Source: an uncultured Clostridia bacterium (lineage in GTDB: Bacteria; Bacillota; Clostridia; Christensenellales; Borkfalkiaceae). From it: a DNA stretch of 64,000 nt. This document shows positions 1 through 62,060 of the stretch, piece after piece. Position numbers and translations under genes: made by a program. The DNA lies in contig CALVWW010000007.1 of NCBI GenBank assembly GCA_944368155.1, positions 1 to 64,000 on the forward strand, in the 5' to 3' direction. The notes under the pieces were generated by a model. That model had not been told where the DNA came from, did not search any database, and saw only the letters and a program-made list of their open reading frames with translations. Every line of letters begins with the position of its first letter. Position 1 is the first letter of the stretch.

Positions 1-3000
1 ATAGAAGTCGCTTATGGCGAAGAAATTTCCCTTGCAGTATCGGCCAACACCGGCTATGAATACGATATCAGCGGCGCCGGCATTTCGGGCAGCAACGGAA
101 GTTACACGTTGGCGTATAACGAAACTTACTATCCCGACGGAGCTACTCTCACTATAGACTTCACAGCAAAGTCATGGGTAATTAACTTCGAGAATATCGG
201 CGAATACATTACCGGTCCCAGCGGTACGCTTTTAACAGACATAACGTTAAATATCGACGGTACCGAAATAACGCCTACCTCAAGTGACTATTGGCCCGAT
301 AATGCGTTTGAAAGAGTTACATTCAGCTACGGCCAGCGCGTTACGGTCAGCGGCCTTTCGCTCGACGGTTACTCTTTCGAGGGCTGGACATTCTATGGCG
401 GAGCAAGCAGCTTAGGTGCACTTGAATATGACAACGCTTCCGGCGTTTATGTTCTTACCGCGGGCGACGTCGACTTTGATTCTTATGTTAACAGAGATCT
501 TTATATCTATGCAAACTGGAATATTGACGCTCCCACGGTAGATATAGAGGCAAGCAATTACGATTCAGTTGAAGGCAGCACCTATACTGCTGAATACGAC
601 CCTGCTTCCGGCGTGACGCTTACGGCCGACGTAAGTCACAACGCAAGCCCCAACACACTCCGTTACACTTATTTCTGGTCGCATTCGGGCAGCAACGGCC
701 CCGTCAATAACGACAGCAGCCAGAGCATAACCGTAACCGACGTTGTCGATACGGGCAGTGTAAACGGCAGCGGCACATATACGCTTACCGTCACCCTTAC
801 TGCAAGCAGTACGCCTTACGGCATTACCGTTTCCAATCTTATGTCGTCGCCAAACGGCATAACCGAAAGGGCGGCGGTTACTGTGCAGATCACTCCTGCG
901 CAGGTTACTGCGCCGACGGCGGCAAGCGGCCTTGTTTATAACGGTCAGTTGCAGACGGGCGTGGCGGTTGCAAGCGGATATGAGGACATATATACCGTAT
1001 CGAACGGCACCGCAATAAATGCGGGCAACTATTCGGCGACTGTTGTCCTCAGCGATAAAACCAACTATGTATGGGCAGGCGGCGGCACGGACGATAAGTC
1101 TGTTGCATGGTCTATCGGCAAGCTTGAACTTAGCGGAGCAACTATAACCTTAAACAGCAGTTCGCTTGTATATAACGGCCAAACGCAGACTGTTACGATA
1201 AGCGGCGTTTCCGTGACGAGCGGCGAATATACGCTCAACCCCGTTGTAACTTCCGACTACACCATAACAAGCGGCAACAGCGGCGAAAACGTAAGTGAGT
1301 ACACCCTCACTATAACCGCGGTCGAAAAGGGCAACTACAGCGGCACGGCGACTGTGAGCTGGAATATAACGGCAAAGCAGATTAGCGAAATCGCGTGGAC
1401 GAACAAAACTCCCTATACCTATAACGGCGGAGCACAGGCGCCCGTGCTTGGAACTCAAAGCTGGCTGTGTGAGGGTGATACGCTCGAAGATATCCTCGAG
1501 GTAAGCATTTCGGGCGATAATGCCGCAAATAACGAGGCGGTAAATGTCGATAACTACACCGCCGAGGCAAACCTCAAACCGGGCGTTGTAAACTATGAGT
1601 TTGCTGCAAGCGTTACAAACAAGTCGGTTGAGTTTGAAATTCAGGCCAAGCAGCTTACGGCGGTATGGAGCGTAGACGGTACGCAGGCAGGCGAAAATGT
1701 TTTCACCGCAACCCAAACATACAAGGGCGGCTCCTTCACTGTAACCGCAACTGCGGCAACCGGCGTGAGCGGTGAAACTGTTACGCTCACTTATACCTAT
1801 ACTTATAATTCAGCTTCGCACAGCGGAGCAATAGAAAATGCAGGTATATATACCGTAACTGCTGCGGTCAACGGCAACAGCAATTATGTAATCTCCGATG
1901 CAAGTAAAGCTTTTACGTTCACTGTGACCAAGGCGACGCCGTATCCAGTAGGGAGCGGTCTTACGGCAACATACGGCGATTTGCTCTCCTCTGTCACTGC
2001 AAGCGGCGTGGCGCATTTCGATGGGAAAGTGGTCGAAGGCACGTGGAAGTGGGGCGACAGTTCGCACAGCTACACCGATGCCACATTGGTGGGCAATAAG
2101 GGCGATAACATCTTCTATGCAACGTTCACCCCGAACGACGGAACAAATTATAACACCGTTGAAAATGTTTCAATCAAAATAACCGTATCTGCAAAGTCCC
2201 TCACCGTTACATGGACGGAGTCTGCCGACTATGTTTACAGCGGTACAGACAAAACTCCTGTACCCAGCATTTCAGCTGGCCAGATAGTGAGCGGCGACGA
2301 AGGCAATGTAACTGTTTCTGCGGAAATTACAGCAGGCAGCGCTACAGACGGCAAAGCAATCAACAAGGGCAGTTACACAGCCACTGCAATCCTTTCCGGC
2401 AGTGCGGCAGGCAACTACGAGATTACGACCGAAAGCTCGACCGAGCAATTTGAGGTAACGGCCAAATCTGTAACCGTTGTGTGGACGCTCAACCCTGCGG
2501 ACAGCGACTGGAGCGTTGATTACAGCGAAAACGGCTATACGGTAAGCGTGGCTGCTCAGTCGGGCGATATACTTACAACCGACAGCGGTGTGAGCGTGGT
2601 GATTGCAAGCTACACCGTTGACGGAACCGAGGGCTCAACTACAGTTGGCGCAACCAGCAGCAAGGTGTATGGCGTAGGCGGTTATACGTTCACCGCAGCT
2701 CTCACCGGCAACGACACATATGGCAACTATGAGATTACAACAAATGAAACCCGGTCCCTCAGCATAGGGCAGACGGCGCTTTCGCCTTCGCTCAGCCTGA
2801 ACTATGAAAACACCTTCACGCTCAACGGCAGCGAAAGCGGCGCGGACATAGTTGTTACGCTCGGCGAAAACTTGCCTTCAGACCTCACCGTTTCGTTCAC
2901 AATGGGTGCAACTACCCTTTCGGACGGCGACGTGACCTTTGAAGGCGGCACATACAAGGCAACGTTCACAGTGGACGCTGAGGGTACATACGAAATTTCC

Positions 3001-6000
3001 GCAAGTGTATCCCACAGCGACGGCGGTTATAATTTAAATCAGCCGTCAGCTGTATCAGCAACTATCAGCTGGCTTGAAGCGACGGACGCATATGTAGCCG
3101 GCACGGGCACCTATATAGCTGATAACGGCGCGATATACTACAGCGGAACCAGCCCTGTATTCAACGCAAACAGCGGCTATAGCCTCGGCTCGGGTATAAC
3201 CGCGGGCGAAAGCTCCTTCAGCGGCATGCAGTTCTATTACAGGAACGCAAGCAATCAGGTCGGCTATGCAGACCTCACTGCAACGAAAGATACAGCCGCT
3301 CCTTCAATCACCATAGGCAGCTCTTCGGGCGACGACAGCTATAACGACGGCGCAAATACCGCAGGCAGCACATGGTGGGTATTTGAAGAGGGAAGCGCTC
3401 CCGCAGTTGTTGTCGGCTCTGCCGATACCGCAAGCGGCGCGGCGGATGTACAGTACTACTGGGATAGCGACGGCACAATAACTGACGGCGCAGATATAAC
3501 AGGTTGGACGTCCGGCACTCCGACGAGCGCGCAGGACGGAGTGCTGTGGATAAAGGCCACCGACAATGTTGGCAACACAGCATACGCCCACGCAAGCTTC
3601 AAGAGCTATTCGGCGCCTGATAACGCTACCGCAAGTTACACAAAACTTTCAAGCGGACCCGTTTCAGCGGCATATGGCGAAAACACCGTAACAGGCGTTT
3701 CTCTCAGCGATTCCGATATCGGAAATTCCAACTATACCGCAACGGGCGGCACGCTCACGCTCAGCACCAATTATCTCAACGCTCTTGCAATGACGGGCGA
3801 TTCGCAGTCGTTTGAATACACCGTTACCTATAGTCCTGCAGGGCTTGAAGGCTCGGATATAAAGAGCGGCAGCATTCCTTCGGGCGGCTTTACCTTTACA
3901 TTTACAGTCACCGTTGAAAAGGCTACCCTCACCGCAGGCGACTTTGATTTCAGCGCAAGCGGAGGAGTGTACAACGGCAATGCATACACCGCTACGGTTA
4001 CGCTTAAAAACGCCGCTTACGGCGCGGGCGACCTCACAGTCACCTATTACGACGAGGAAGACAGCCTTGTGACCGACAGCGATAACAGCGCGACTGCACC
4101 CGTAAATGCGGGTACCTACACCGTTAAGGTGAGCGCAAGCGGTTCAACTTACTACAAGGCGGCAACCGAACTCACCGCCGATAACTGGAACTTTACGATA
4201 ACAAAGGCAACGCCGACTATTAGCGTAAATTCCGCAGGCACGGTAACCTATGGCAATTTACTGTACATAACCGGTTCTATCGCAAACTACGGAACTGCCG
4301 TTGAGGGAATAACTTTAAATGCCACTATAGATGGCAATACTCTTAGCTCTGTCACATTAACTGATAATGGAACTTTCTATATTCCTGAATACGATACGGC
4401 AGACAAAGGACTTGCAATCGGAAGCAATACAATCACTGTTTCGTTTGCGGGCAATCAAAACCTCAATGCGGCCGAAGGTTCGGTAACAGTAGTCTTAAAT
4501 GAAAAGACCGTTACGGTCGTTGTAAACGGCGACATACGCAAGACTTACGACGGCACGACGGCGGTCGAAAGCGGCGATATAATCCTCGGGTTCACTGATG
4601 GGGATATCGAGGCAGGCGGCAATAGCGGCATCGACAATGTTTCCGCGGTGTTTACTTCGGCTGAATACTCTGATAAGAACGCAGAAACCGGCAAAACCGT
4701 TACGGTAAGCGGCATCACCCTCAGCGGAGGTGACGCAGAATGGTACAAGTTGAACGTCACCGAAGCTGCTTCAGCCAACGGTGTAATTGAAGCCAAAACT
4801 ATTTCGGCAGGCGATATAACGTGGACCTATACCAACAGCGGCGTAGCAGGAGGCGCTTCTCAGACGCTCACCGTCAACGGCGGCGCGGCTACGGTCACCT
4901 ACAACGGTTTGCAGTACACTGTTTCCGCTGAATTTACGGGCGAGGGCGAGGACGGCACCATCAGCCTTGAAATGTCGGGCAACTCCTTCACAGATGTGGA
5001 TAACAGTCCCTACGCGGTTGCGGCAGCTATCCTTTCCGCCCACAGCAACAACTATGTGCTCGATACCGGCGCGGGAAGCTTGTCTGTGAGCGTAAGTGAA
5101 GGCAGCACAAGCATTACAAACTTAGCGGCCTATCTGGGCGAAACAGCGGCGACTTTGTTCACATACGGCGACACTATAACGATAAAAGGCAATGTTGCAT
5201 ACGGCGAAGGCGGCACAATAACCGTTAAGTCGGGTGAAACCACATTGGGAACGGCCACAGTAGATGCCGACGGCTCATTCGAGCTTGATTACGATACGGC
5301 AGACAAGGGGCTTTCAATCGGCAGCAATACTCTTTCAGTCTCCTTCGGCGGAAATGCAAACGTTGGAACGGCAGTCGCAACTGTTACAGTTACTCTTGAG
5401 CAGAAAACAGTTAGTGTTTCAATCTACGGCACGACGACAAAGGAATACGACGGCACGACTGACGCACCTTCAGGCGCATCGCTCAGTTTAGCCGGTGTTT
5501 TGGGGGCTGATGATGTATCTGTAGACGGTACTCCGGCCTATAACAGCAGTAACGTCAACGAAGCCGACACAATCACTGCCTCCGGCCTGACTCTCACAGG
5601 TACACACAGCGGCTATTATAAACTCTATGCAGAAAGCGCCGAAACTTCCGGCACTATTACAGCCAAGGGTGTAGCGCTTGACTGGTCGGTAGACAACGAC
5701 GCGGTAAAACAGCCTGACGGCACCTTCACCGGCACCTATAACGGCACCGAATTCAAAGTTGAAGCAAGCGCAAGCGGCGTTAACGGCGAAACTGTGACAG
5801 CTGTGCTCGATTACAGCAGCTTCACAAATGCCAACGCGGACGGCGAAAACTACACTGCAACAGTTACCGGCCTCACCGTAACTGCTTCCGACAGCTCAAT
5901 AATTGCAAACGGCGGAAACAACTACGAAATAGCCGCGGACAATGACAGCGTAACGCTTGTTATCAATCCCAAGGAAATAGGCCTTGACTGGAGCGTACTT

Positions 6001-9000
6001 GACGACCTCGTTTACGACGGAAATGCGAAGGAGCTCACGGCAACTGCCACCGGCACGGTGGGTACCGACAGCTGCACAGTCACCGTAACTCTTACGGGCG
6101 ACAATGTAAACGTCACGGAAGACGGCTTCTATTATACGGCTACGGCGCTCGGTAATTCCAATTACAAGCTGCCTTCAGCTGTAAACAGCAATACTTACCA
6201 TATCACAGCCAAGACTGTTAACGTTGATTGGACTGTAAACGGCAGTGCATGGACGGATAGCGGCACCTATACCGCCGGCGGCTACACCGTTGAAGTTTCC
6301 ACATATGACATTGTTGCGGCCGATACCACCGCAGTCAGCCTCACGCTTTCGGGCGGAGAGTCGGGCAGCGGCGCCCGGCAGTTCATCAAGAACTACAAAG
6401 AGGACGGATATGGCCTTGAAGTATCGCTCAACAACACGAGCGGCTACAACAACTATGCGCTTGCAGCGGAAGACGTTTCAAAGATCTTCACGGTGAACAA
6501 GGCAACGCTCACCGACAATACCGCCGCCGTGACGGAGGAGTACGACGGAACGGCGCACAGCCTTACGATAAGCCTTGCTGGCTTTGCGGCAGGCGATGAG
6601 CAGACTACCGCCGCGGGCTATAAGGTGGAATACAGCACCGACGGCAACACCTGGAGCGAAACTCCCGTAACGGTTACAAACGTTGCGGACAGCAAAACCG
6701 TCTACTACCGCGTAAGTTACACCAACTACAACACGGTCGAAGGCAACAAAGCGATAACCATCGAAGCAAAACAGCTCTATGCGGATGATATCGAATGGTT
6801 CTTCACCAACGATAAAGTTGAGGGCGGAGACAGGCAGGAAATAGCCGGCGAACTCGTCTACAACGGATCAGAATATGCAATCTATGCAACTGTTGCAGGC
6901 GTGGGCGAAACTCTTGAGCTCGTTGTAACGGGCGGCGAAGACGGCGGCAACACCTTCACACACGTTCCCGCAAGCGGCGCTTACGGCATGCTGGCAGAGC
7001 TGGAAGGCACTGCGACCAACTACACATTCAAGGGGCAGACAACAAGTCTTTTCGTCCTTATCAGCAATGCCTCCATCGGCATAACTATAGAGGGATACGA
7101 AGGCGAATACGACGGCACGGCCCACGAGGCGGCGACATACAGCGCAATCACTGCCGACGGCAGCGAAGCTGCATGGCAGTTCCGCCTGAGCGAAGAAGAA
7201 GCATGGAGCGGAACAATACCTGAAGTTACCGATGCCGGCACATACACCCTGTATTACACGGTTTCCGTTGCCAACCATGCCACGGAAGAAGGCTCTGTAG
7301 AAGTTACCGTAGGCCGTAGAGACCTTGCAAACGCGGAGATAGAAGTTCTCAGCGAGCACGAATATGACGGCACGGAGCACGAGGCTGTTATCGAAGTCAC
7401 CGACGGAGAGATAGCCATAACCGAAGGTGACTGGGAAGTAGCTTTCTCTGAAAACATTGACGCGGGCGTTGCCACGATTACATTGACGGCAACGGAGGAC
7501 GGCAACTATAAGGGCGTAACATACGCACAGTTCACTATCGCCGAAAGGGAGATAGAGACCGTGTGGAACCTTCCCGAAGGCACGTCAGTGGACGAAAACG
7601 GCGCGTATACAATAGTGTACAGCGAAGGCGGCCACACGATAAGCGCGGACGTTGTAACCGAAGTTGACGGCGAGGTTGTCGTAATTCACATTACTCTCGA
7701 GGATGAAACTCTTGAGAGCCACACCTTAACAGCGGCAGGCACATACAAGCTTTCGGCGGAAATAGTATCTGTTGAAGGCGGAAAGGCCGAAAACTACAAG
7801 CTCATAAATACCGAGATAACATTTGTAATAACAAAGGCAACGGCAACTGTACCCGTTCCCGGCAAGGTTGAAGGCGAGCTCACCTACGGCGACAGCCTTT
7901 CGCAGCTCGACCCTCCCGAGGGCTGGCAGTGGACCGAACCCGGTAAGATACCCACTATCGAGGAAGGCGAGAACGGTATAAGCATCACCATACCTGTCGA
8001 CGACGATAACTACGACTGGACGGGCGTCGAGGGATATGACCCTGAAAACGGTACATACACGACTACGGTGACAGTCAAAGTCAACAAGGCGACATATGAC
8101 CTTACGGGCGTAACTTTCGACGATAAGACCTTCGTTTACGACGGTCAGCCCCACTCGCTGGAGATATCCGGAACCCTTCCCGACGGCGTGAGCGTTGAGT
8201 ATATAAACAACGCGCAGACGGAAATCGGCGAGTATGAAGTTACCGCGGTATTCAAGGGCGACGTAAACTACAACGATATACCCGACATGACCGCCAAGCT
8301 CACTATAAAGGAGATAGACATCTCGGATGCAACGATAGAGATTGTATCCTCCGGGTTGCACGTCTACAACGGCAGGGAGCACACCGTAGACATTCGCGTG
8401 ACCGACAGCGACGGCAACGTTATTTCGGGCGAGAACTACACGGTAAGCTATGCGGATAACATCGATGCAGGCATTGCAACCGTCACGGTAACGGCCACCG
8501 GCAACTACAGCGGCACGCTCAGCGCAAACTTCACCATTGCGGCCAAGCATGTCGGCGTCGAGTGGATACTTCCCGACGGAATTGCCGGCGAAGACGGTTC
8601 GTATTCGGCAGACTACAGTGAAGAAGGTTACACAATCACGGCGGTTGCAGACCTCGGAGTTGACGGCGAAAGCGCAGTGCTCACCTTCGAAGTCAACGGA
8701 GAGGCGGTAAACGGCGTAACCTGTTCCGAAGCCGGCGTTTACACGATAAACGCCATTCTGGGCGGCGTTACGGGCGGTCAGGCGAATGTAAGCAACTACA
8801 CGCTGGTCAACCACACCATTTCGCTTGAAATAAGCGAAAAGCAGGAACCCGGTCCCGCAATAAGCTTCGAGTATACCGAGCCTGAAAATCTCGTTTACGA
8901 CGGAACTGCCAAGCAGGCGACCGTTGTTCCCACGGGCGGCTACACAGGCTATGAGGCTACCGTATACTATTCGAGCACGGCCGACAGGATAACTTCCGTC

Positions 9001-11283
9001 GAACCCGTGAATGCGGGCACCTATTACGTATTTGCCACCGTTGAAATAGGCGGCAGCAGTGCGTTCGCACCCGTGCTTGTCGGCGAGTTCACAATAGCGC
9101 GTGCCGTTGTGGAAATTCCCGTCGGCGGCGAAATCGAAGCAAACGGCGAGGAACAGACCTATCTTCCCGAGGGCTTCGACGGAGATATAATGGATATTGA
9201 GGGCAACATATTCACCGAGGACGGCGAATATAACGCCACAATCTCGCTCCGCGACCCCGATAACTACGTGTGGGAAGACGGCACCGATACTTCCAAGGAG
9301 ATAGCCTTCACGGTAACTCCCGAAACCTTAAATCTCCTGTGGCTGATAATACTGCTTGCGGTAATTGCAGTCATAGAGATAGTAATCATAATACCTTTAA
9401 ATAAGCGCCGCAAGCGCAACGCGCAGAACGGCGACGGCGGCGACGATGACGAAGGCGGCGACGATAATGACGGCGGCGCGGCCGCAGGCGGAACCGACGG
9501 TACGCCTTCGGGCGGCGGCAACGGCGGAGGAGCTTCGCTCCTCGCCGTGGCCCCCATGGCAATGCTGGCGGCAGAAAACCTGCCCTCAGGCCAGCTCGCC
9601 GCTATAATAGCCCTCGGCGTTGCGGTCGTCGGCCTCGGCATCGCAGATACCGTTCTGGGAGTAAAGGGCAAAAAAAAACGCCAAAAGATAGAGAGTAACG
9701 CGCAGGAAGAGGCGGCTGCAACCCAGCCCGAACCCGAGCCCGAAGAGGCGCCTGCGGAGGAGCAGTCCGAACCTGAACCTCAGTCCGAACCTGTTTATGA
9801 ACCTCAACCCGAACCTGTTTATGAACCCCAGCCCGAACCTGTTTATGAACCTCAGCCCGAACCCGTTTATGAACCTCAGCCCGAACCTGAACCGGCATAC
9901 GGGCAGACTGACAGCGACAGGGAGTATGCCACGCAGGTGCTGTATAGCGAGCAGCCGCAGTTTGTGCCTGTGCCCGCGCCCGTGTTCGTGGCCCCGCCCG
10001 AACCCGCGCCCGTGGTGCCGGTAATTCTTCCCGACGAAGACGGAATGTACACCGTGCGCTATCTCTACAGCTTCAGGGCAAAGCTTATTCAGTCCACTCC
10101 CGAAATTCAGAGGCGCTACCAGAACATAATCGATTTGGTCGGCGCTTACGAAGGTGTAAAGGCGGTGGAGAGCTGGAAGCATGTGCGCATTTACAGCGGC
10201 AGGGAGCTCTATTCTTACATGGTGTTCAAGGGCAAGAAGCTTTGCATAACCTTTGCTCTCGACCCGGCCGAATTTGAAGATACCAAGTACCGCGGGATAG
10301 ACGTTTCCGACGTAAAGCGTTACGAAAAAACGCCTATGATGCTCAAACTCACTTCCGACAGGCGCGGCAGATATTCCGAATATCTTCTCTCGCTGCTGCT
10401 TGAGCGCGAAGGGTTTACAAAGGGCGAGGTAAAAGTAACCGAAATAAACCTGCCTTACGAAACGCGCGAACAGCTCATACGCCGCAAACTCGTAAAGATA
10501 GTTGCGCCCGGTGCGCGAGGCGGCGAGAAGGAGCGCATAGACCGCGAAACCTTCCTGAGGGAACAGCAGGCCATGCGCGAGGCGGAGGCGGAGATTATGC
10601 CCCTTGTCGACGAGCAAGGCATGGTCATTATCCGCTACAACTACAGTTTCAGGGCAAAGCTCATACAGTCCACGCCCGAAATCCAGAAGCGCTACGGCAC
10701 CCTCGTCGATTTTATGCGTTCGTATAAAAAGGTCAAGGCGGCCGAGAGCTGGAAGCAGGTGAGGGTATATGCCGGCAGAACGCTGTATGCTCTGTTCACC
10801 TTCCGCGGCAAAAAACTGTGCGTGAGCTTTGCGCTCGACCCCGCTGAATTCGAGGGTACCAAGTACCGCGGAATAGACGTTTCCGGCGTAAAGAAGTATG
10901 CGCGCACGCCCATGATGCTCAAGCTCACATCCGAGCGCAGAGCGCGCTATGCAGAACATCTCTTCACGGTCCTCATGGAACGCGGGGAAGTGCCCCAGGG
11001 CGTCGTCGTTCCCACCGAGTGGGAAAATGAATACCGCTCGCGCGAGCAGCTGATAACTGACAATAAAATAAAGATGGTCAGCGTTGGCCTGCGCCGCGGC
11101 GCAGGCGAGGCCGAAAAGGTCGACGTTTACACCGCCATACGCGAACGCGCGGCGGCGCGCATGGCCGAAAGGCAGGCGGCGGAAGCTAAGGCCGCCGAAG
11201 AAGCTGCCGCTGCACAGGCCTCTTCACAGCAGTCGGAACCTTCCGAAAAGGCGGTTGAAGAGAGCTCTGAGGCAAAGGCGTAA
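1..11283 (+). CDS. Giant MBG/Ig-repeat surface protein, membrane anchored (5' partial)
   Basis: The frame is open from base 1, so the gene starts upstream of the window; at least 3,760 residues are present. It begins with an InlB-like beta-grasp segment (GYSFEGW), followed by dozens of beta-rich modules with the YDG/YNG, KATPTIS-type and TYGD signatures of bacterial YDG and MBG domains, typical of adhesins. A hydrophobic helix (nt 9334-9399) followed by KRRKR, an Asp/Gly-rich linker and a second hydrophobic segment (about 9592-9660) replace an LPXTG anchor. Next come EPVYEPQP repeats (9780-9900) and two copies of a domain of about 120 residues (10051-10410 and 10618-10983) with YSFRAKLIQSTPEIQ and ALDPAEFE. 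From memory, this last domain occurs in uncharacterised clostridial membrane proteins. The repeats point to adhesion or cell-surface scaffolding; the role of the tail is unknown. Confidence 0.9.
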   Translation: MEVAYGEEISLAVSANTGYEYDISGAGISGSNGSYTLAYNETYYPDGATLTIDFTAKSWVINFENIGEYITGPSGTLLTDITLNIDGTEITPTSSDYWPDNAFERVTFSYGQRVTVSGLSLDGYSFEGWTFYGGASSLGALEYDNASGVYVLTAGDVDFDSYVNRDLYIYANWNIDAPTVDIEASNYDSVEGSTYTAEYDPASGVTLTADVSHNASPNTLRYTYFWSHSGSNGPVNNDSSQSITVTDVVDTGSVNGSGTYTLTVTLTASSTPYGITVSNLMSSPNGITERAAVTVQITPAQVTAPTAASGLVYNGQLQTGVAVASGYEDIYTVSNGTAINAGNYSATVVLSDKTNYVWAGGGTDDKSVAWSIGKLELSGATITLNSSSLVYNGQTQTVTISGVSVTSGEYTLNPVVTSDYTITSGNSGENVSEYTLTITAVEKGNYSGTATVSWNITAKQISEIAWTNKTPYTYNGGAQAPVLGTQSWLCEGDTLEDILEVSISGDNAANNEAVNVDNYTAEANLKPGVVNYEFAASVTNKSVEFEIQAKQLTAVWSVDGTQAGENVFTATQTYKGGSFTVTATAATGVSGETVTLTYTYTYNSASHSGAIENAGIYTVTAAVNGNSNYVISDASKAFTFTVTKATPYPVGSGLTATYGDLLSSVTASGVAHFDGKVVEGTWKWGDSSHSYTDATLVGNKGDNIFYATFTPNDGTNYNTVENVSIKITVSAKSLTVTWTESADYVYSGTDKTPVPSISAGQIVSGDEGNVTVSAEITAGSATDGKAINKGSYTATAILSGSAAGNYEITTESSTEQFEVTAKSVTVVWTLNPADSDWSVDYSENGYTVSVAAQSGDILTTDSGVSVVIASYTVDGTEGSTTVGATSSKVYGVGGYTFTAALTGNDTYGNYEITTNETRSLSIGQTALSPSLSLNYENTFTLNGSESGADIVVTLGENLPSDLTVSFTMGATTLSDGDVTFEGGTYKATFTVDAEGTYEISASVSHSDGGYNLNQPSAVSATISWLEATDAYVAGTGTYIADNGAIYYSGTSPVFNANSGYSLGSGITAGESSFSGMQFYYRNASNQVGYADLTATKDTAAPSITIGSSSGDDSYNDGANTAGSTWWVFEEGSAPAVVVGSADTASGAADVQYYWDSDGTITDGADITGWTSGTPTSAQDGVLWIKATDNVGNTAYAHASFKSYSAPDNATASYTKLSSGPVSAAYGENTVTGVSLSDSDIGNSNYTATGGTLTLSTNYLNALAMTGDSQSFEYTVTYSPAGLEGSDIKSGSIPSGGFTFTFTVTVEKATLTAGDFDFSASGGVYNGNAYTATVTLKNAAYGAGDLTVTYYDEEDSLVTDSDNSATAPVNAGTYTVKVSASGSTYYKAATELTADNWNFTITKATPTISVNSAGTVTYGNLLYITGSIANYGTAVEGITLNATIDGNTLSSVTLTDNGTFYIPEYDTADKGLAIGSNTITVSFAGNQNLNAAEGSVTVVLNEKTVTVVVNGDIRKTYDGTTAVESGDIILGFTDGDIEAGGNSGIDNVSAVFTSAEYSDKNAETGKTVTVSGITLSGGDAEWYKLNVTEAASANGVIEAKTISAGDITWTYTNSGVAGGASQTLTVNGGAATVTYNGLQYTVSAEFTGEGEDGTISLEMSGNSFTDVDNSPYAVAAAILSAHSNNYVLDTGAGSLSVSVSEGSTSITNLAAYLGETAATLFTYGDTITIKGNVAYGEGGTITVKSGETTLGTATVDADGSFELDYDTADKGLSIGSNTLSVSFGGNANVGTAVATVTVTLEQKTVSVSIYGTTTKEYDGTTDAPSGASLSLAGVLGADDVSVDGTPAYNSSNVNEADTITASGLTLTGTHSGYYKLYAESAETSGTITAKGVALDWSVDNDAVKQPDGTFTGTYNGTEFKVEASASGVNGETVTAVLDYSSFTNANADGENYTATVTGLTVTASDSSIIANGGNNYEIAADNDSVTLVINPKEIGLDWSVLDDLVYDGNAKELTATATGTVGTDSCTVTVTLTGDNVNVTEDGFYYTATALGNSNYKLPSAVNSNTYHITAKTVNVDWTVNGSAWTDSGTYTAGGYTVEVSTYDIVAADTTAVSLTLSGGESGSGARQFIKNYKEDGYGLEVSLNNTSGYNNYALAAEDVSKIFTVNKATLTDNTAAVTEEYDGTAHSLTISLAGFAAGDEQTTAAGYKVEYSTDGNTWSETPVTVTNVADSKTVYYRVSYTNYNTVEGNKAITIEAKQLYADDIEWFFTNDKVEGGDRQEIAGELVYNGSEYAIYATVAGVGETLELVVTGGEDGGNTFTHVPASGAYGMLAELEGTATNYTFKGQTTSLFVLISNASIGITIEGYEGEYDGTAHEAATYSAITADGSEAAWQFRLSEEEAWSGTIPEVTDAGTYTLYYTVSVANHATEEGSVEVTVGRRDLANAEIEVLSEHEYDGTEHEAVIEVTDGEIAITEGDWEVAFSENIDAGVATITLTATEDGNYKGVTYAQFTIAEREIETVWNLPEGTSVDENGAYTIVYSEGGHTISADVVTEVDGEVVVIHITLEDETLESHTLTAAGTYKLSAEIVSVEGGKAENYKLINTEITFVITKATATVPVPGKVEGELTYGDSLSQLDPPEGWQWTEPGKIPTIEEGENGISITIPVDDDNYDWTGVEGYDPENGTYTTTVTVKVNKATYDLTGVTFDDKTFVYDGQPHSLEISGTLPDGVSVEYINNAQTEIGEYEVTAVFKGDVNYNDIPDMTAKLTIKEIDISDATIEIVSSGLHVYNGREHTVDIRVTDSDGNVISGENYTVSYADNIDAGIATVTVTATGNYSGTLSANFTIAAKHVGVEWILPDGIAGEDGSYSADYSEEGYTITAVADLGVDGESAVLTFEVNGEAVNGVTCSEAGVYTINAILGGVTGGQANVSNYTLVNHTISLEISEKQEPGPAISFEYTEPENLVYDGTAKQATVVPTGGYTGYEATVYYSSTADRITSVEPVNAGTYYVFATVEIGGSSAFAPVLVGEFTIARAVVEIPVGGEIEANGEEQTYLPEGFDGDIMDIEGNIFTEDGEYNATISLRDPDNYVWEDGTDTSKEIAFTVTPETLNLLWLIILLAVIAVIEIVIIIPLNKRRKRNAQNGDGGDDDEGGDDNDGGAAAGGTDGTPSGGGNGGGASLLAVAPMAMLAAENLPSGQLAAIIALGVAVVGLGIADTVLGVKGKKKRQKIESNAQEEAAATQPEPEPEEAPAEEQSEPEPQSEPVYEPQPEPVYEPQPEPVYEPQPEPVYEPQPEPEPAYGQTDSDREYATQVLYSEQPQFVPVPAPVFVAPPEPAPVVPVILPDEDGMYTVRYLYSFRAKLIQSTPEIQRRYQNIIDLVGAYEGVKAVESWKHVRIYSGRELYSYMVFKGKKLCITFALDPAEFEDTKYRGIDVSDVKRYEKTPMMLKLTSDRRGRYSEYLLSLLLEREGFTKGEVKVTEINLPYETREQLIRRKLVKIVAPGARGGEKERIDRETFLREQQAMREAEAEIMPLVDEQGMVIIRYNYSFRAKLIQSTPEIQKRYGTLVDFMRSYKKVKAAESWKQVRVYAGRTLYALFTFRGKKLCVSFALDPAEFEGTKYRGIDVSGVKKYARTPMMLKLTSERRARYAEHLFTVLMERGEVPQGVVVPTEWENEYRSREQLITDNKIKMVSVGLRRGAGEAEKVDVYTAIRERAAARMAERQAAEAKAAEEAAAAQASSQQSEPSEKAVEESSEAKA

Positions 11284-33696: not shown

Positions 33697-33773
33697 CTGC
33701 CTGTGGTGCAGCTGGATAACACGTCAGACTCCGACTCTGGAGACCCGCGGTTCGAATCCGCGCAGGCAGACCA
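33697..33773 (+). tRNA. tRNA-Arg (anticodon CCG)
   Basis: A full cloverleaf is present: acceptor CTGCCTG/CAGGCAG, D arm around AGCTGGATAA, anticodon stem TCAGA/TCTGG with loop CTCCGAC, T arm CGCGG-TTCGAAT-CCGCG, discriminator A and encoded CCA. It decodes CGG. A hairpin terminator follows at once. Confidence 0.95.
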
Positions 33774-54927: not shown

Positions 54928-54956
54928 TTGACACTGCCGAATGTTTGTGCTATATT
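54928..54956 (+). promoter_or_regulatory. Promoter TTGACA-N17-TATATT of lipoprotein gene 1
   Basis: TTGACA 54928-54933 and TATATT 54951-54956, giving a leader of about 170 nt before the start at 55134. Confidence 0.75.
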
Positions 54957-54962
54957 GTACGT

Positions 54963-55133
54963 GGCAAAAATTGCGAAAGAAATTTTTATTTGCATCAAGC
55001 TGCCAATAAAATGCTGGGCGTCTTCAGGCAGGCGCCCAGCACAAAAAACCTTTCTTAAGGGGATGATACGGGCAAGGTCTTATTGGGGGTGCAATAAAAA
55101 TTCTTCGCCAATAAAATCTTATAGGAGGGCAAA
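54963..55133 (+). ncRNA. Conserved lipoprotein leader RNA, copy 1
   Basis: It shares an ordered set of blocks with the leader at 58638. First TTTGCA.CAAGCTGCCAATAAAA, forming a short hairpin, then a GC-rich hairpin (TGCTGGGCG/CGCCCAGCA). Next ACAAA.AACCTTTCT-AAGG (hairpin CCTT/AAGG), and finally GCCAAYAAAAT..TATAGGAGG-CAAA at the start codon. The GC hairpin differs in sequence but pairs in both copies. Confidence 0.6.
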
Positions 55134-58100
55134 ATGAAAAAACTCAAACGGTTGATTCCTATGTCGCTCGGTCTCGTAATGGCGGTTTCGATTTCCTTTG
55201 CCGCAGCATGTACCGAGACCGGCGAAAGCGGATATACCGTAACGTTCGATTCGAACGGCGGCACGGCTATCGCTTCTCAGCAGATAGACGACGGCGGAAC
55301 CATTGATGAACCGACTGAACCTCAGTTCGGCGGCTACACTTTTAAGGGATGGTACTATAACGGCGCGGAATACGATTTCTCGTCGGTTGTAACGTCCGAT
55401 ATGACTCTTTCGGCTGTATGGGAAAAGATAGAAGAGGAAGAGCCTGAACCCGAACCCGAACCCGAACCTGAAGTTTACATAGTGTCGTTCGATTCTGCAG
55501 GCGGCGGATATGTGCCTGTGCAAAAAGTGGAGGAAGGCGGAAGCGCGACCCGTCCTTCCAATCCCGTATATGCCGGCCACACTTTTGAAGGCTGGTATCT
55601 GAACGGCTCGCTGTATAATTTCTCAACGCCTGTTACGGATGATATTGTGCTTACGGCGCACTGGTCCAATCTCTACACCGTAACGTTCAACACCAACGGC
55701 GGTTCGGTTGTTGCCAGCCAGAGCGTGGCTCCCGGCGGCAGGATTTCAAAGCCTTCGGACCCCGTATTCGACGGCTACACATTCCAGGGCTGGTACTATA
55801 ACGGCGCAGAATATGATTTCTCTTCGACTGTCACATCCGACATGGTCATAACTGCAATGTGGGCAGAGGAGAGCGGCACTTCGCCTTCTGATTCGCAGTT
55901 CCCCGTAACTCTTGCTCCCGGCGGCAAGTCGTTCACTTATGGTTGGGAAGGTGAGGAAACAACCGTTCAGATAGACGAAAAGAATATATATGTAGACGGA
56001 AGACTGACCGATGAACAGATTGAGGGCGTCGACAACGTATATAATTCTTTTGTGGATGCCATGAATAATCTTACCGACGGAACGGAGAGCGAGCCGATGA
56101 ACGTATACATAGCTCCCTATGTATATTGGATTCACAATCCTTATTCATCCTCCACGACCGAAGCCTACGGCATGTATATTAATTGCAAAAATCTGCACAT
56201 CACCGGCCTCACCGACGACCCTTATAATGTAGTTATAGCCGGCAACTACGGCCATAACGAAGGATATGACGGCGGCAACTGGACTATGTTCAGCGTGAGC
56301 GGCGACGGGCTCAATCTCAGGAACGTGACGTTCGGCGATTACTGCAACGTCGACCTTGAATATCCGCTCGACCCCTCGCTCAGCATGCCCAAGAGAACGG
56401 ATAATATCACACAGGGCCAGATAGCTTCTTACCGCGGCGACAAGCTGTATGCCGAAAACTGCAACTTCATAAGCCGTCTGAATATGATGCCCTTCAATAA
56501 CAGCCAGCGTGCGCTTTACGTCAACTGCCATATGGAGAGCACCGACGACTCGTTGAACGGTTCTTCCAAGGCCGTCTATCTCGGCTGCGACTTTGAATTC
56601 TACGGAACCAAACCTTGGGGCGGTTCGAGCGGCGTTACCCTTCTCGACTGCACAATGACGTCCTGCAACTACAACGTAAGAGATTCTGTTTCGCAGTATC
56701 TCAGCAAGGGCGCAGGCCGTTTCACGGTCATCGACTGCAGATTCCTCAGCGATTACGATGTTCCCGTAACATTCGGCTGGTCGGATGTCATAAGCGAGTC
56801 TTTCCGCAGCTATTATTCAAACGTAACGCATAACGGCGAGCAGATAGCCATAGACGACGGCGGCGCAAGACCCGACGCATGCGTGGATATCACCGGCACC
56901 GAAATGCTCAAGGCATATAAACTTGTCGATGAAAACGGACAGATAGTATACAATGTCTACAACCTTCTCCGCGGCACCGACGATTGGGACCCTCTCGGCC
57001 AGAAAGAAATAGTGACCAAGCTCGGCGCAACCGACATTGCCACTAACATGACCGTATCTATTTCCGAAGGTTCTTCAGAGATAGAAGCAGGCGCAAGCAC
57101 GGCTACGCTTACATACAGCCTTTCCGGACCGCAGAACAGCGATTACACTTCAAAGGCAAAAGTAACATGGAGCGTGGCTCCCGAAGATGAACAGTATGTA
57201 AAACTTACCCCTTCGGCAGACGGAACAACTTGTGTTGTAGAGTCCTTGAATGACACCGACGAAATTCCCACCGTCGTTGTTATGGCTACCGACGAATCCG
57301 GCCTTCAGGGCGCTGTTGCCCTTCAGGTCAGGGCTGAGATTCTTCCCGCTCCCGAGTTTACGTCCGACCCCGTTATCAGGCAGAATGCCGACGGAACCGC
57401 TCAGGTTGACTATGAAATCAGCGGCGAAAGCGCGGATAACTCCTATATCATATGGTCTGTATGCGACGACGCACAGGGAACCAACGCCATAGAGATAGCC
57501 GTAGGCCGCATGGACGAGCCTCTCAAGGTCATAACTCTCGACCAGGCGTATGTAGGCAAATACCTTCAGGTTTCCATTTTAAGGAAGTCTGTACGTTCCG
57601 ATTACGCCGATGTGGCTGACGTTTATATCCTTGAAACTCCTATAGCGCAGGAAGGCATAACTGCCGGCAATACGCTCACGACAGATTTCTCAACGTTCTC
57701 CACCGCGCCTCAGACCGACGTAATCAAAGGCATGTGGACTGTAGACGCTTATTGCCCCGAAGATACGCAGGCCGGTTACATCCCTCTCGACGGTACCGAA
57801 GTGGACGGCAAGTATTCCGACAAGGTAGGCGGCAAGTGGACACCTGCAAATATAAATAACAGCATATCTTCATGGAATTACGGCACAGGTGCCAAGGTCG
57901 GCTATAACGGATATTCCGGCATAATGAATACCCAGCGCGGCGCCAGAATAATGTACACGCCGCTTGAGGAAGAATATTCGGATATGGACGTGACCTTAAT
58001 GGTAGCTCCCGGTAAAGAGGCTTCACAGGGCTTCGGTTCCGACTATCAGTACATGGATATCATGATTCAGTTCGATACCGAAACTCTCACCGGTTACGGC

Positions 58101-58412
58101 CTCAGGATATACAGGAAGAGCGGCAACAGCTGTGAATTTGTTCTCATGGAACATAGAGACGGCAAGAGCAAAGAAATATGCACGCCTGTTGAATCTGCTG
58201 CATATCTTACCGAATGCACCATTCACGTATGGACGGAAGACGGCAATCTCAACGCCCATGTTGAAAGCAGCCAGATTCCCGACGACCAGGTTGACCTTTC
58301 CGTCAAGATGGATAAAGATTACAATTACGGCGGTTTCTGCCTGATAAGCACAGGCACTACAGGCGACAACTCAACGTATCTTTGCAATCTTTCCATGGAA
58401 TGGACTAAATAA
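55134..58412 (+). CDS. Beta-helix surface lipoprotein with three InlB repeats (pectin-active-like)
   Basis: This is a 1,092-residue protein. A signal peptide ends in the lipobox FAAAC (about 19-23). Three InlB/Listeria-Bacteroides repeats follow (about 32-250, each YTVTFDSNGG...GWYYNG...TLSAVW). Next is a right-handed beta-helix (about 270-600) with YAENCNFISRLNMMP and RALYVNCHMESTDDSLNG, resembling pectin methylesterase or pectate lyase helices. It closes with an Ig-like module and a ConA-like C-terminal domain (about 850-1092, DMDVTLMVAP, MDIMIQFDTE, GYGLRIYRKSG). Substrate and catalysis are uncertain. It has its own promoter, leader and terminator (58458). Confidence 0.88.
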   Translation: MKKLKRLIPMSLGLVMAVSISFAAACTETGESGYTVTFDSNGGTAIASQQIDDGGTIDEPTEPQFGGYTFKGWYYNGAEYDFSSVVTSDMTLSAVWEKIEEEEPEPEPEPEPEVYIVSFDSAGGGYVPVQKVEEGGSATRPSNPVYAGHTFEGWYLNGSLYNFSTPVTDDIVLTAHWSNLYTVTFNTNGGSVVASQSVAPGGRISKPSDPVFDGYTFQGWYYNGAEYDFSSTVTSDMVITAMWAEESGTSPSDSQFPVTLAPGGKSFTYGWEGEETTVQIDEKNIYVDGRLTDEQIEGVDNVYNSFVDAMNNLTDGTESEPMNVYIAPYVYWIHNPYSSSTTEAYGMYINCKNLHITGLTDDPYNVVIAGNYGHNEGYDGGNWTMFSVSGDGLNLRNVTFGDYCNVDLEYPLDPSLSMPKRTDNITQGQIASYRGDKLYAENCNFISRLNMMPFNNSQRALYVNCHMESTDDSLNGSSKAVYLGCDFEFYGTKPWGGSSGVTLLDCTMTSCNYNVRDSVSQYLSKGAGRFTVIDCRFLSDYDVPVTFGWSDVISESFRSYYSNVTHNGEQIAIDDGGARPDACVDITGTEMLKAYKLVDENGQIVYNVYNLLRGTDDWDPLGQKEIVTKLGATDIATNMTVSISEGSSEIEAGASTATLTYSLSGPQNSDYTSKAKVTWSVAPEDEQYVKLTPSADGTTCVVESLNDTDEIPTVVVMATDESGLQGAVALQVRAEILPAPEFTSDPVIRQNADGTAQVDYEISGESADNSYIIWSVCDDAQGTNAIEIAVGRMDEPLKVITLDQAYVGKYLQVSILRKSVRSDYADVADVYILETPIAQEGITAGNTLTTDFSTFSTAPQTDVIKGMWTVDAYCPEDTQAGYIPLDGTEVDGKYSDKVGGKWTPANINNSISSWNYGTGAKVGYNGYSGIMNTQRGARIMYTPLEEEYSDMDVTLMVAPGKEASQGFGSDYQYMDIMIQFDTETLTGYGLRIYRKSGNSCEFVLMEHRDGKSKEICTPVESAAYLTECTIHVWTEDGNLNAHVESSQIPDDQVDLSVKMDKDYNYGGFCLISTGTTGDNSTYLCNLSMEWTK

Positions 58413-58457
58413 TAACAATTTGTTGCATGATTTTCCCTGCAACGGATAAAGCCAGCT

Positions 58458-58495
58458 AAAATCTCCGCGAAGGCGTTTGCCTTCGCGGAGATTTT
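58458..58495 (+). terminator. Terminator of lipoprotein gene 1
   Basis: AAAATCTCCGCGAAGGC pairs with its complement around GTTT; the T-tract is part of the stem end. Confidence 0.85.
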
Positions 58496-58601
58496 CAGCC
58501 TTAATTTCAAGATATTTACATAAAATTTGCGTTATAAACATAATTATTATAATTTTTATGATAAAAAGTTGCAAAAATCGGGATTTTTTTTACATTTACT
58601 A

Positions 58602-58631
58602 TTGACATTAAAGTAAAAACCGTGTTATATT
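58602..58631 (+). promoter_or_regulatory. Promoter TTGACA-N18-TATATT of lipoprotein gene 2
   Basis: TTGACA 58602-58607 and TATATT 58626-58631, the same pair as upstream of gene 1 apart from one spacer base. Confidence 0.75.
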
Positions 58632-58637
58632 GTATAA

Positions 58638-58811
58638 GGTAAAATAGCGGAGAAATTTTTTATTTGCAGCAAGCTGCCAATAAAAGGGCGGGGCGCCTTA
58701 AACCGGCGCCCCGCACAAATAACCTTTCTAAGGCGAAAAAGACGGCAAAGTTTTTGTTATGCAAACTGCAAAAAAGTTTCTTTTGCCAACAAAATATGAT
58801 AGGAGGACAAA
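58638..58811 (+). ncRNA. Conserved lipoprotein leader RNA, copy 2
   Basis: Its hairpin 1 is TTTATTTGCAGC/GCTGCCAATAAA in outline, hairpin 2 is GCGGGGCGCC-type (58688-58713), and hairpin 3 is CCTT/AAGG. GCCAACAAAAT...ATAGGAGGACAAA leads into the ATG. Order, spacing and unpaired bases match copy 1. Confidence 0.6.
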
Positions 58812-61800
58812 ATGAAAAGACTAAAGCGGTTTATTCCTCTGTTGCTCGGGCTCGTTCTGGCGATTTCTATCTGTTTCGCCGCGGCGTGCTCAGGCACTGA
58901 GTATACCGTAACGTTCGACTCGAACGGCGGCTCTGCCGTGGAAAGCCAGAGTGTGGTTGAAGGCGAATCGGCAGAAGAGCCCGAAGAGCCCGTTTACGCA
59001 GGCTATGAGTTCGACGGCTGGTATCTGAACGGACAGGCTTACGACTTCTCCTCGGCGGTGACGGAAGATATAACGCTCACCGCGCAGTGGACTGCCGTAT
59101 ACACGGTTACGTTCGATTCCAACGGCGGCACGGCTGTTGCCGACCAGCAGGTAAGGGATGGGGAGACGGCCACCGAGCCCACTGCCCCCACAAACGGCGA
59201 AAACGCCTTCCTCGGCTGGTATCTCAACGGCAGGAAATACGACTTTTCGACGCCGGTAACTTCCAATATCACCCTCGTGGCCGTTTGGAACGACGGAGGG
59301 CAGGTTGAATATACGATAACATTTAATTCCAACGGCGGCAGTGCTGTTTCATCACAGCAGGTGGCCGCAGGCGGAAATGTTGCGCAGCCCGCCGACCCCG
59401 TTTACGAGGGCTACGCTTTCGACGGTTGGTATTACGGCGACGTTCTGTTCAATTTCGACACCGTTGTTACTTCCAACATTATCCTTGTCGCAAGGTGGAC
59501 GAGGGCTTATACCGTAACATTCGACTCGAACGGCGGTTCGGAAGTTGAAGCACAGATTGTGAGAACGGGTCAGATAGCTACTCTGCCCGCGGAACCTACA
59601 TATCTCGGCCGTGAGTTCCTTGGCTGGACTCTCGACGGCGAAGAGTATGATTTCCTCACGCCCGTAACAAGCGACATAACGCTCACGGCAAGCTGGAGTG
59701 AGGGCAACAACGACATGATAGTCGATATGGCTATCGATACCGCAACGGCGGTGACCGAATTTGCCATAGGCGATGAGTTCAGCGCCGAGGGGCTGAGCAT
59801 TACCGCTACTCTGTATGACGAGGAGACCCTCGCCACGAGAGAAGAGCGCGTCGACATTACAGACCCCAGTGTCACCATCGATTCTTCCGAGTTCGATTCT
59901 ACCGCGGCCGGCACATATACAATATATGTAGGTTGCACGCTCGGCGGCCTTACCCGCTGGCAGAGCTATGAAGTTACCGTGTCGTCTGTAATCAGCGGCG
60001 TGCACGGCATTGAACTTTCCAAGACTGTGACCGAGTACGAAGTGGCAATAGACGGTGACCCCGCTCCTATTGACCTCGACGACCTGACGGTCAACGCCGT
60101 TAACGAGGACGGTACTCTCGGTGCCGAAATCACGAGCGGCATAACCTATAAATATTTCCTCGGCGCAGAAGAAGTTACCGCCGAGCAGCTCACTACCGCA
60201 AACGCAAGAGTATTCCAGATATGGGCATACGTTGACTACACCGTAGGCAACGAGACTTATGTTATGTCCGATTTTGTACTCGTTGAAGTTGTGGGCAATC
60301 TCATAACGGCAATGAGCTTTGCAGAGGGTAACACCACGCAGGCCCAGAGCTACACCAACTCCATGACCTCAACGTGGGTATTTAACGCTGAGTACAGCCT
60401 TACGGGCGACGCCACAATCGATTTAAGCACGGCAACCATAGGTACCGGAGCAGGCCAGTACACGGTAAGCGGCCTCTATCCCGCGGTTACGGGCAACGGC
60501 ACTGCTGTAGTTACTTACTATTATCAGGTTGGTTCTGAAGTTCTCAGCGCAACTTGCGAAGTTCCTTACACCATAACCGGCGCAACCGAAGAGAGCACGT
60601 TCTCCGCGGTAATCGACGTGAATGCAGGTACTGCGGATGAAGCCGACCTTCCCGAGGCAACAACGGTTATAACCTCTATGGCCGACGGTGATGAAATTGT
60701 TGCCGGCATGGTATATTCCAACGGTCTTTCCGGCGTCAATTCCGAGAATAAGGCCGGCGCCAACGGCGAGGGCAAGCTCTATGGCCGCGTTCAGTTCGGT
60801 TCAACAAAGGGCGTAACGCTCTACCTCGGCGGCCCAGCAACGATAACCCTGTATGCGCGCTACGGCTCGTCCAGCGGCACCGGTTCACAGTTTGTGCTCA
60901 GCTCCGACGGTGAAGAAGTTGCAAGGTCTGCAGTTTTAGCGAACAGCAAAGCATATGAAATTGTCACCGTAGAAGTTCCCGCGGCAGGCGTATATACACT
61001 GTTTGCTTCCAGCGGTTCGCTCAATACCTTCAGAATTGAAATCGAAGGTACAATAGTGCCTGATAACATGGTGACTGAAACCTTCAATGTAAATGACCTT
61101 ACTGCAACCGATGTGGGCGAATATACCGCCAATAAGGCGCTTGACGATACGTTTACAATCGTTGCAGCATCGGGCGCATCTGTAAAAATTGACGACAAAA
61201 CAAGTGACCCCGTAACGGTTGGAGGACAGTCTTTCAACTATGCGGTAAACCTCGGCGGCAGCAAGAAAGGCAGCGGCAATGCCCGCTCGATTATGTTCAC
61301 CGTTACCGAAGCTATGGTGGCCGAAGGCCCCGTAACGCTTACCGTTTATGCTAACCACGGCGGCGGCGCGGGTTCAATCAGAATGCTCGGCATATACGCT
61401 GACGGCAAGAGCAGTAGCAGCTATATCGTTAGCAGCGCAGTAGACGGCGGCGGAGCAGTTGTCGAACTCACTATCGATACTGCAGGAACCTATTATATGG
61501 GCTCGCAGAGCAGCGGTATCAATATCTACCGCATAGACCTCAGCTATGTTCCTACCATTGTTACTGTAGACTTCAATGTAAATGACCTTACTGCAACCGA
61601 TGTCGGTGAATATACGGCGAACAAGGCGCTTGACGAAACTTTCACTATCGTTGCGGCTTCGGGCTCTACCGTAAAAATTGACGACAAAACGAGTGCTCCT
61701 GTTACAATCGAGGGTCAGTCTTACAACTATGCCGTAAATCTTGGCGGCGGTAAGAAACCCAGCGGCAACACCCGCTCGATTATGTTCACAATCACCGAAG

Positions 61801-62060
61801 ATATGGTTGCGGCAGGTCCCGTGACTCTCACTGTATATGCTAACCACGGCGGCGGCGCAGGTTCAATAAGAACGCTCGGCGTTTATAATGACGGCGGCGA
61901 AAAAGATGAATATGTTGCCGGTGAAGATATAGACGGCGCCGGCGCAGTTGTTGAACTTACTATCGAGGCGGCGGGTACGTATTATATGGGTTCCGCAGGC
62001 AGCGGCATGAACATCTACCAGATAATTCTCAGCTATACTTCTGCTGGGGAGGGGGTGTAA
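58812..62060 (+). CDS. Surface lipoprotein with four InlB repeats and repeated carbohydrate-binding-like domains
   Basis: This is a 1,082-residue protein. The signal peptide has lipobox FAAAC (about 19-23); four InlB repeats follow (about 30-300). Then comes an Ig-like module (about 300-400, with EFAIGDEFSAEGLSITATLYD). Three beta-sandwich domains of 120-150 residues make up the C-terminal part. The last two are close copies (TFNVNDLTATDVGEYTANKAL and DFNVNDLTATDVGEYTANKAL; both end TYYMGS...NIY). I see no catalytic domain, so substrate binding at the cell surface is the likely role. The next gene starts four bases after the stop, forming an operon with the PL9 lyase. Confidence 0.85.
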   Translation: MKRLKRFIPLLLGLVLAISICFAAACSGTEYTVTFDSNGGSAVESQSVVEGESAEEPEEPVYAGYEFDGWYLNGQAYDFSSAVTEDITLTAQWTAVYTVTFDSNGGTAVADQQVRDGETATEPTAPTNGENAFLGWYLNGRKYDFSTPVTSNITLVAVWNDGGQVEYTITFNSNGGSAVSSQQVAAGGNVAQPADPVYEGYAFDGWYYGDVLFNFDTVVTSNIILVARWTRAYTVTFDSNGGSEVEAQIVRTGQIATLPAEPTYLGREFLGWTLDGEEYDFLTPVTSDITLTASWSEGNNDMIVDMAIDTATAVTEFAIGDEFSAEGLSITATLYDEETLATREERVDITDPSVTIDSSEFDSTAAGTYTIYVGCTLGGLTRWQSYEVTVSSVISGVHGIELSKTVTEYEVAIDGDPAPIDLDDLTVNAVNEDGTLGAEITSGITYKYFLGAEEVTAEQLTTANARVFQIWAYVDYTVGNETYVMSDFVLVEVVGNLITAMSFAEGNTTQAQSYTNSMTSTWVFNAEYSLTGDATIDLSTATIGTGAGQYTVSGLYPAVTGNGTAVVTYYYQVGSEVLSATCEVPYTITGATEESTFSAVIDVNAGTADEADLPEATTVITSMADGDEIVAGMVYSNGLSGVNSENKAGANGEGKLYGRVQFGSTKGVTLYLGGPATITLYARYGSSSGTGSQFVLSSDGEEVARSAVLANSKAYEIVTVEVPAAGVYTLFASSGSLNTFRIEIEGTIVPDNMVTETFNVNDLTATDVGEYTANKALDDTFTIVAASGASVKIDDKTSDPVTVGGQSFNYAVNLGGSKKGSGNARSIMFTVTEAMVAEGPVTLTVYANHGGGAGSIRMLGIYADGKSSSSYIVSSAVDGGGAVVELTIDTAGTYYMGSQSSGINIYRIDLSYVPTIVTVDFNVNDLTATDVGEYTANKALDETFTIVAASGSTVKIDDKTSAPVTIEGQSYNYAVNLGGGKKPSGNTRSIMFTITEDMVAAGPVTLTVYANHGGGAGSIRTLGVYNDGGEKDEYVAGEDIDGAGAVVELTIEAAGTYYMGSAGSGMNIYQIILSYTSAGEGV

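Follow-up and report, generated by a model that had tools for sequence, protein, structure and literature searches.

What is the untranslated leader that precedes each of two neighbouring genes for secreted lipoproteins, and what does it do for the mRNAs that begin with it? The two genes lie in a 64,000-nucleotide stretch of DNA from an uncultured Clostridia bacterium (the whole of which is called the window here), and a first, sequence-only reading had pointed to leaders at positions 54963 and 58638 with a common promoter type and two hairpins, which we call P1 and P2. These elements are present as claimed: the predicted transcript starts fall at 54963 (leader 1) and 58638 (leader 2), both promoters have a perfect TTGACA -35 box, and the leaders run for 171 and 174 nucleotides (nt), respectively, to the start codon. 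Within the window the P1 block TTTGCANCAAGCTGCCAATAAAA is found at just these two places, as it is in the 1.73 Mb genome as a whole, against 0.00 occurrences expected from shuffles; searching the genome with this block revealed no third copy of the leader.

The leader is one of a family. Pattern and covariance searches of 93 genomes of the same genus, a search in related genomes that the sequence-only reading had proposed, recovered 21 copies in 20 genomes. The window has two of them, and a single copy was found in each of the genomes G005, G006, G008, G013, G014, G015, G016, G017, G019, G027, G033, G063, G075, G084, G086, G096, G108, G111 and G115. Strong matches score down to about 33 bits, with background setting in near 29 bits; copy L205 (23.7 bits) was accepted because it is correctly placed upstream of a homologous gene. 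Every copy lies upstream of a secreted lipoprotein gene, except that of G005, which is truncated by a contig end, and the domains encoded by the leader-bearing genes include Flg_new, Big_3 and PF00544. Rfam 15 returned nothing on the leaders above the gathering threshold, its permissive matches being at chance level, and its only gathering-level match in the window is a tRNA at 33697, in keeping with the earlier impression that no known riboswitch class fits. Beyond the genus, no convincing copy was found in 396 genomes from across the order, a search of low sensitivity in which only 12 candidates per genome were scored, nor among 84,980 GTDB (r220) species screened with the exact P1 pattern, nor in IMG/VR, and the matches in 11 genomes of the family and 12 of the order were at background level only. 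That the leader is a conserved and structurally selected RNA without an Rfam family is well supported, with P1 and P2 kept or covarying in 20+ copies; we take it for a new cis-acting RNA family outside the current catalogues that is apparently restricted to the genus.

The hairpins P1 and P2 are demonstrated by the alignment of these copies. P1 sets in 13-25 nt downstream of the predicted transcript start and is a hairpin of about 10 base pairs (bp), with a nearly invariant AU core (UUUAUU/AAUAAA) and upper pairs that covary. Five of its pairs show double changes, with 25 double-change cells against 10.9 in shuffles (a value reached in 0 of 500), and its covariation score of 0.282 exceeds the highest value of the slid controls, 0.116; within the core, U-A to C-G changes are found in copies L164 and L205. 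The loop is mostly GCAAGC and otherwise GCGAGC, GCGGGC, GCAGAC or one of the shorter GUAGC, GUACC and GAAAC. P2 starts 0-5 nt after P1 and is a perfect stem of 9-13 bp in each of the 13 leaders examined, with p ≤ 0.0045 throughout, its sequences being unrelated from copy to copy. In the window, its perfect stems of 12 and 10 bp (p < 0.001 against shuffles) bear out the initial argument that GC arms which differ and still pair are the mark of structural selection. An A-rich strand, with the consensus AAAAACAYTT, stands 3' of P2. Both window leaders have in common an A-run/CCTTTCT block and a second GCCAAYAAAA box, which had been listed at the outset as shared features; the A-run is conserved family-wide, whereas the second box is peculiar to the window pair and is not kept in the other genomes, where only the A-run stays.

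A third helix, P0, absent from the sequence-only reading, is supported by fold models and would join the first transcribed bases to a strand near the ribosome site. The tail 3' of P2 is complementary to the 5' flank together with P1 (Stouffer z -10.2, 13 leaders), with its own partner ranking best of 13 for eight tails, and the 5' flank is complementary to the last part of the leader, the pairing that makes up P0 (Stouffer z -9.2; z negative in 18 of 18). The outermost pair of the minimum free energy (MFE) fold lies within 5 nt of the start and ends 18-30 nt before the AUG in 16 of 18 leaders, where dinucleotide shuffles predict 0.86, and every leader has a helix whose start lies between +1 and +9 and whose end lies 18-36 nt before the AUG. 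The predicted fold stops about 10 nt 5' of the Shine-Dalgarno site, whose local pairing varies, and the closed domain spans about 100-195 nt. Closure was found in 16 of 17 P1 leaders against 5 of 43 same-genus controls with comparable promoters (1 of 12 lipoprotein genes lacking P1 and 4 of 31 other genes; Fisher 2e-9), so that P0 would belong to the leader RNA and not to a genus-wide habit, these P-values being only guides because the closure criterion was set after the folds had been seen and the copies share ancestry. Given the P0 pairing, the leader would form one closed domain from the 5' end of the mRNA.

The arms of P1 have a second potential partner in the linker between P2 and P0 (Stouffer z -6.3), a complementarity that is strong only in the shorter leaders and whose z in copy L156 is inflated by a tandem duplication. 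In the models, P1 and P0 are compatible and form a junction of P0, P1 and P2, at times with further hairpins; alternatively, the P1 arms open and pair with the linker in an extended helix, a state mutually exclusive with P1. The predicted ensemble energies of the two states lie less than 2 kcal/mol apart in 9 of 18 leaders, both window copies included, while the extended fold is favoured by 3.7-9.5 kcal/mol in seven leaders and P1 by 3.0-6.7 kcal/mol in two. In the modelled P1 state, compared with the alternative, the mean accessibility of the Shine-Dalgarno site and AUG changes by -0.02 and the exposure of the first four nt rises by 0.22 (up in 13 leaders and down in 3; Wilcoxon p 0.003). Since the ribosome site is unchanged and the exposure of the 5' end shifts, we place the probable output at the 5' end of the mRNA. 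Prediction and the shuffle tests support P0 and, in part, the alternative fold.

The best explanation that we can offer, and we offer it tentatively, is that a structured 5'-terminal leader controls the 5'-end-dependent decay of the mRNA, possibly as a bistable element and with a partner of P1. The leader would cap long lipoprotein mRNAs that are strongly transcribed and shield their 5' end from pyrophosphohydrolase and from decay by RNase J, with the ribosome site kept outside the fold; a rearrangement between P1 and the extended fold would alter the exposure of the 5' end, so that mRNA lifetime could be tuned by a partner that binds P1. The conserved core and loop of P1 suggest such a partner, either a protein or a ligand. 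The promoters are near consensus, P1 stands at a fixed distance from the predicted start, and RNase J is encoded, above its cut-off. The mRNAs of ompA and aprE are known examples of stabilisation by a 5' stem-loop (PMC3997798, PMC7509114), and the RppH of Bacillus subtilis requires at least two unpaired 5' nt (PMC3997798). Two marks of a stabilising stem-loop recur here: judged from the predicted starts, 16 of 18 leaders have a helix at or near the 5' end, and the ribosome site lies outside it.

The stem-loops of ompA and papA in Escherichia coli and of aprE in B. subtilis are likewise 5'-terminal helices with few unpaired bases, placed ahead of a strong Shine-Dalgarno site in the message of an abundant protein that is secreted or sits at the surface. 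In contrast to them, the leader described here is a closed multibranch domain with a conserved inner P1 and an alternative fold, and a family shared by many genes of one genus, for which stabilisation is what we infer. In hok-type type I toxin mRNAs, a metastable early local hairpin competes with a later long-range 5' helix, a competition to which our two modelled folds are akin; in the present leader, however, the fold leaves out the Shine-Dalgarno site, and the gene encodes a lipoprotein. The stronger proposal that the leader is truly bistable, with folds that expose the 5' end to different degrees but the ribosome site alike and with a P1 partner that sets mRNA lifetime, is decidedly unlikely; if true, the leader would be a switch on 5'-end-dependent decay common to a surface-lipoprotein regulon. 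A leader that controls decay at the 5' end would also provide a means by which small-genome gut Clostridia may keep long, costly surface-protein mRNAs alive. The family has a clear anatomy and a testable output, and its roughly 20 natural leaders allow 5'-end closure and the internal hairpin to be separated by mutation.

Several points weigh against control of decay at the 5' end. The function rests on predicted folds and predicted transcript starts, both the closure criterion and the window of 18-30 nt were picked post hoc, and related copies are not independent. Leader 1 closes P0 only suboptimally, the helix being missing from its global MFE fold; its flank and P1 against the tail give z -3.6, and P0 alone gives z -0.5, which is not significant. 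The G063 copy has neither promoter nor closure, lipoprotein genes lacking P1 do without the closed fold (the 1 in 12 given above), and the pairing of P1 with the linker reaches significance in no more than about half of the leaders, the long ones lacking it. Finally, a plain stabiliser would need no conserved P1 core and loop.

A ligand riboswitch, in which P0, P1 and P2 form a three-way-junction aptamer, its P1 loop conserved and its joining strand A-rich, and a metabolite picks P1 or the extended fold, is an unlikely alternative that draws on the same anatomy. It would make sense of a closed multibranch domain with a conserved junction A-run, of mutually exclusive folds with near-equal predicted energy in about half of the copies, and of the lack of a matching Rfam class. 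However, the conservation of the P1 core and the A-run is accompanied by a loop that varies (seven variants, from GCAAGC to GAAAC) beyond what is expected of an aptamer core, and the downstream genes encode large surface proteins, not the enzymes or transporters of one metabolite. An expression platform of the usual kind is lacking: inspection found no U-tract 3' of the leader hairpins, and the accessibility of the Shine-Dalgarno site and AUG does not change on average between the modelled states, with no terminator and no Shine-Dalgarno switching. The sugar or second-messenger signal that had been considered reasonable at first has no positive evidence in its favour.

It is likewise unlikely that P1 is the site of an RNA-binding protein that regulates the translation or decay of a lipoprotein regulon. 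Such a site could well look like P1, a hairpin of conserved sequence (UUUAUU stem, GCRRGC-type loop) that keeps its distance from the 5' end constant, and P2 would act as its spacer; but the loop is not strictly conserved, no candidate partner was identified, and a dedicated partner should co-occur with a leader that is present in just 20 of 93 genomes, no co-occurrence search having been made.

We consider it very unlikely that the leader is a functionless by-product, with promoter, leader and signal peptide duplicated as one module. These three do move as a set and the window copies are paralogous, and a recent duplication of the whole region had been named in the sequence-only reading as an explanation that would undo its case. 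Where genes 1 and 2 encode the same amino acid, their four-fold degenerate sites agree at 6 of 12 positions in the signal-peptide region and 12 of 27 over the next 85 aligned codons (18 of 39 across the N-terminal coding region), and a further four-fold degenerate count gave 53 of 145, whereas P1 is identical at 25 of 26 bases between the window leaders. Synonymous sites that are near random beside an almost identical P1 therefore rule out a recent whole-region duplication as the source of the leader similarity. The arms of P2, moreover, change with their pairing kept.

That P1 is a DNA operator, a palindromic repressor site near +20 and not an RNA structure, is highly improbable: it is indeed a 26-bp inverted repeat with conserved half-sites, but its spacer positions covary as Watson-Crick pairs, copies L176, L177 and L188 have loop asymmetries, and neither P2 nor P0 needs a conserved sequence to pair. 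The recruitment by P1 of a LoaP-type NusG paralog for processive antitermination can, within the reach of the available assemblies, practically be dismissed: the LoaP/dfn leaders of Bacillus velezensis are also hairpin leaders upstream of very long units in Bacillota, as these are upstream of very long genes in Clostridia, but 0 of 93 genomes pass the LoaP (NF033641) cut-off, each has at most one full-length NusG-like gene and hence no NusG paralog (a second match in G068 is a split fragment), no leader terminator was seen, and the P1 loop is of the GCRRGC type and not the UNCG loop of the dfn hairpin (PMC12691694).

Three smaller candidates were rejected. A terminator on the antisense strand, formed by P2 and the upstream A/T tract, was set aside on inspection, as the T-tract lies up to 5 nt off the stem in several copies. 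An anti-Shine-Dalgarno role of CCTTTCT is possible in the window pair, but the motif is not kept in other genomes. A preQ1-like pseudoknot between a hairpin and its A-tail was also discarded by inspection, the P2 loops being variable and not pairing with the tail.

Table 1. Features of the two transcription units, in window coordinates; transcript starts are predicted.
Feature	Position	Strand	Description and basis
Unit 1 promoter	54928..54956	+	TTGACA 54928-54933, 17 bp, TATATT 54951-54956; consensus promoter scan
P0 5' strand, leader 1	54970..54981	+	ATTGCG-A-AAGAA; predicted duplex with 55101-55112
P1 hairpin, leader 1	54985..55010	+	TTTATTTGCA TCAAGC TGCCAATAAA; covariation across 20 copies
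P2 hairpin, leader 1	55012..55041	+	perfect 12-bp stem TGCTGGGCGTCT/AGGCGCCCAGCA; 0 of 2000 shuffles reach the stem
A-rich segment 3' of P2, leader 1	55042..55049	+	alignments; consensus elsewhere AAAAACAYTT
P0 3' strand, leader 1	55101..55112	+	predicted duplex; overlaps second GCCAATAAAA box (55107-55116)
Shine-Dalgarno AGGAGG, unit 1	55123..55128	+	sequence
Gene 1	55134..58412	+	1092-amino-acid secreted lipoprotein; three Flg_new (InlB-type) repeats and a C-terminal region outside domain matches
Unit 2 promoter	58602..58631	+	TTGACA 58602-58607, 18 bp, TATATT 58626-58631; consensus promoter scan
P0 5' strand, leader 2	58638..58658	+	starts at +1; predicted fold and duplex
P1 hairpin, leader 2	58659..58684	+	TTTATTTGCA GCAAGC TGCCAATAAA; covariation
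P2 hairpin, leader 2	58688..58714	+	perfect 10-bp stem GCGGGGCGCC/GGCGCCCCGC; shuffle test
A-rich segment 3' of P2, leader 2	58715..58724	+	ACAAATAACC
P0 3' strand, leader 2	58774..58787	+	final pair 24 nt upstream of AUG
Shine-Dalgarno AGGAGG, unit 2	58801..58806	+	sequence
Gene 2	58812..62060	+	1082-amino-acid secreted lipoprotein; four Flg_new repeats and Big_3

Genes 1 and 2 have only the signal peptide and the InlB-type repeats in common, and their C-terminal regions differ. Their products had been taken for extracellular pectin-type proteins; searches of Pfam, NCBIfam and PDB found no pectin-type domain in either, matching only Flg_new/InlB and Big_3 repeat regions, and a structure model of the middle domain of gene 1 was unusable (mean predicted local distance difference test score, pLDDT, 32). 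A pectate lyase (PF00544) is encoded downstream of the leader in two other genomes, G017 and G111. At locus L156 (G111 C28, oriented 2833-2958), a pectate lyase gene has a leader in which P1 and P2 stand in a near-exact tandem duplication. At the start of the window, the contig boundary cuts an open frame of 3724 amino acids (109-11283) that encodes YDG and Big_3_5 domains; the leader of this giant gene on contig C7, which the sequence-only reading had proposed to check for a further copy, therefore lies outside the assembly.

Two loci need separate mention. L269 (G111 C33 8014-8075, minus strand) is an intergenic look-alike of P1, P2 and the A-run, with a malQ-like gene on one side and the gene of a solute-binding lipoprotein on the other. 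It has no consensus promoter, is doubtful and may be a relative or a chance match. At L153 (G063 C213), a copy with P1 and P2 intact lies upstream of a lipoprotein gene, without a recognisable promoter or tail complementarity; it may reflect an assembly junction or be degenerate.

The 6S RNA (RF00013), which like the leader forms a long imperfect hairpin, is a gene neighbour at many loci of the genus. It differs from the leader in being a separate RNA and not a 5' untranslated region; the 6S model gives no match on the leader, and no 6S match lies within the window. The 6S RNA adjoins a lipoprotein gene, with or without a P1 leader, in at least 14 same-genus loci: L155 (2068-2250), L150 (6145-6325), L160 (575-754), L166, L172, L174, L175, L181, L189, L190 and L205, together with L170, L184 and L187, where it is encoded on the other strand.

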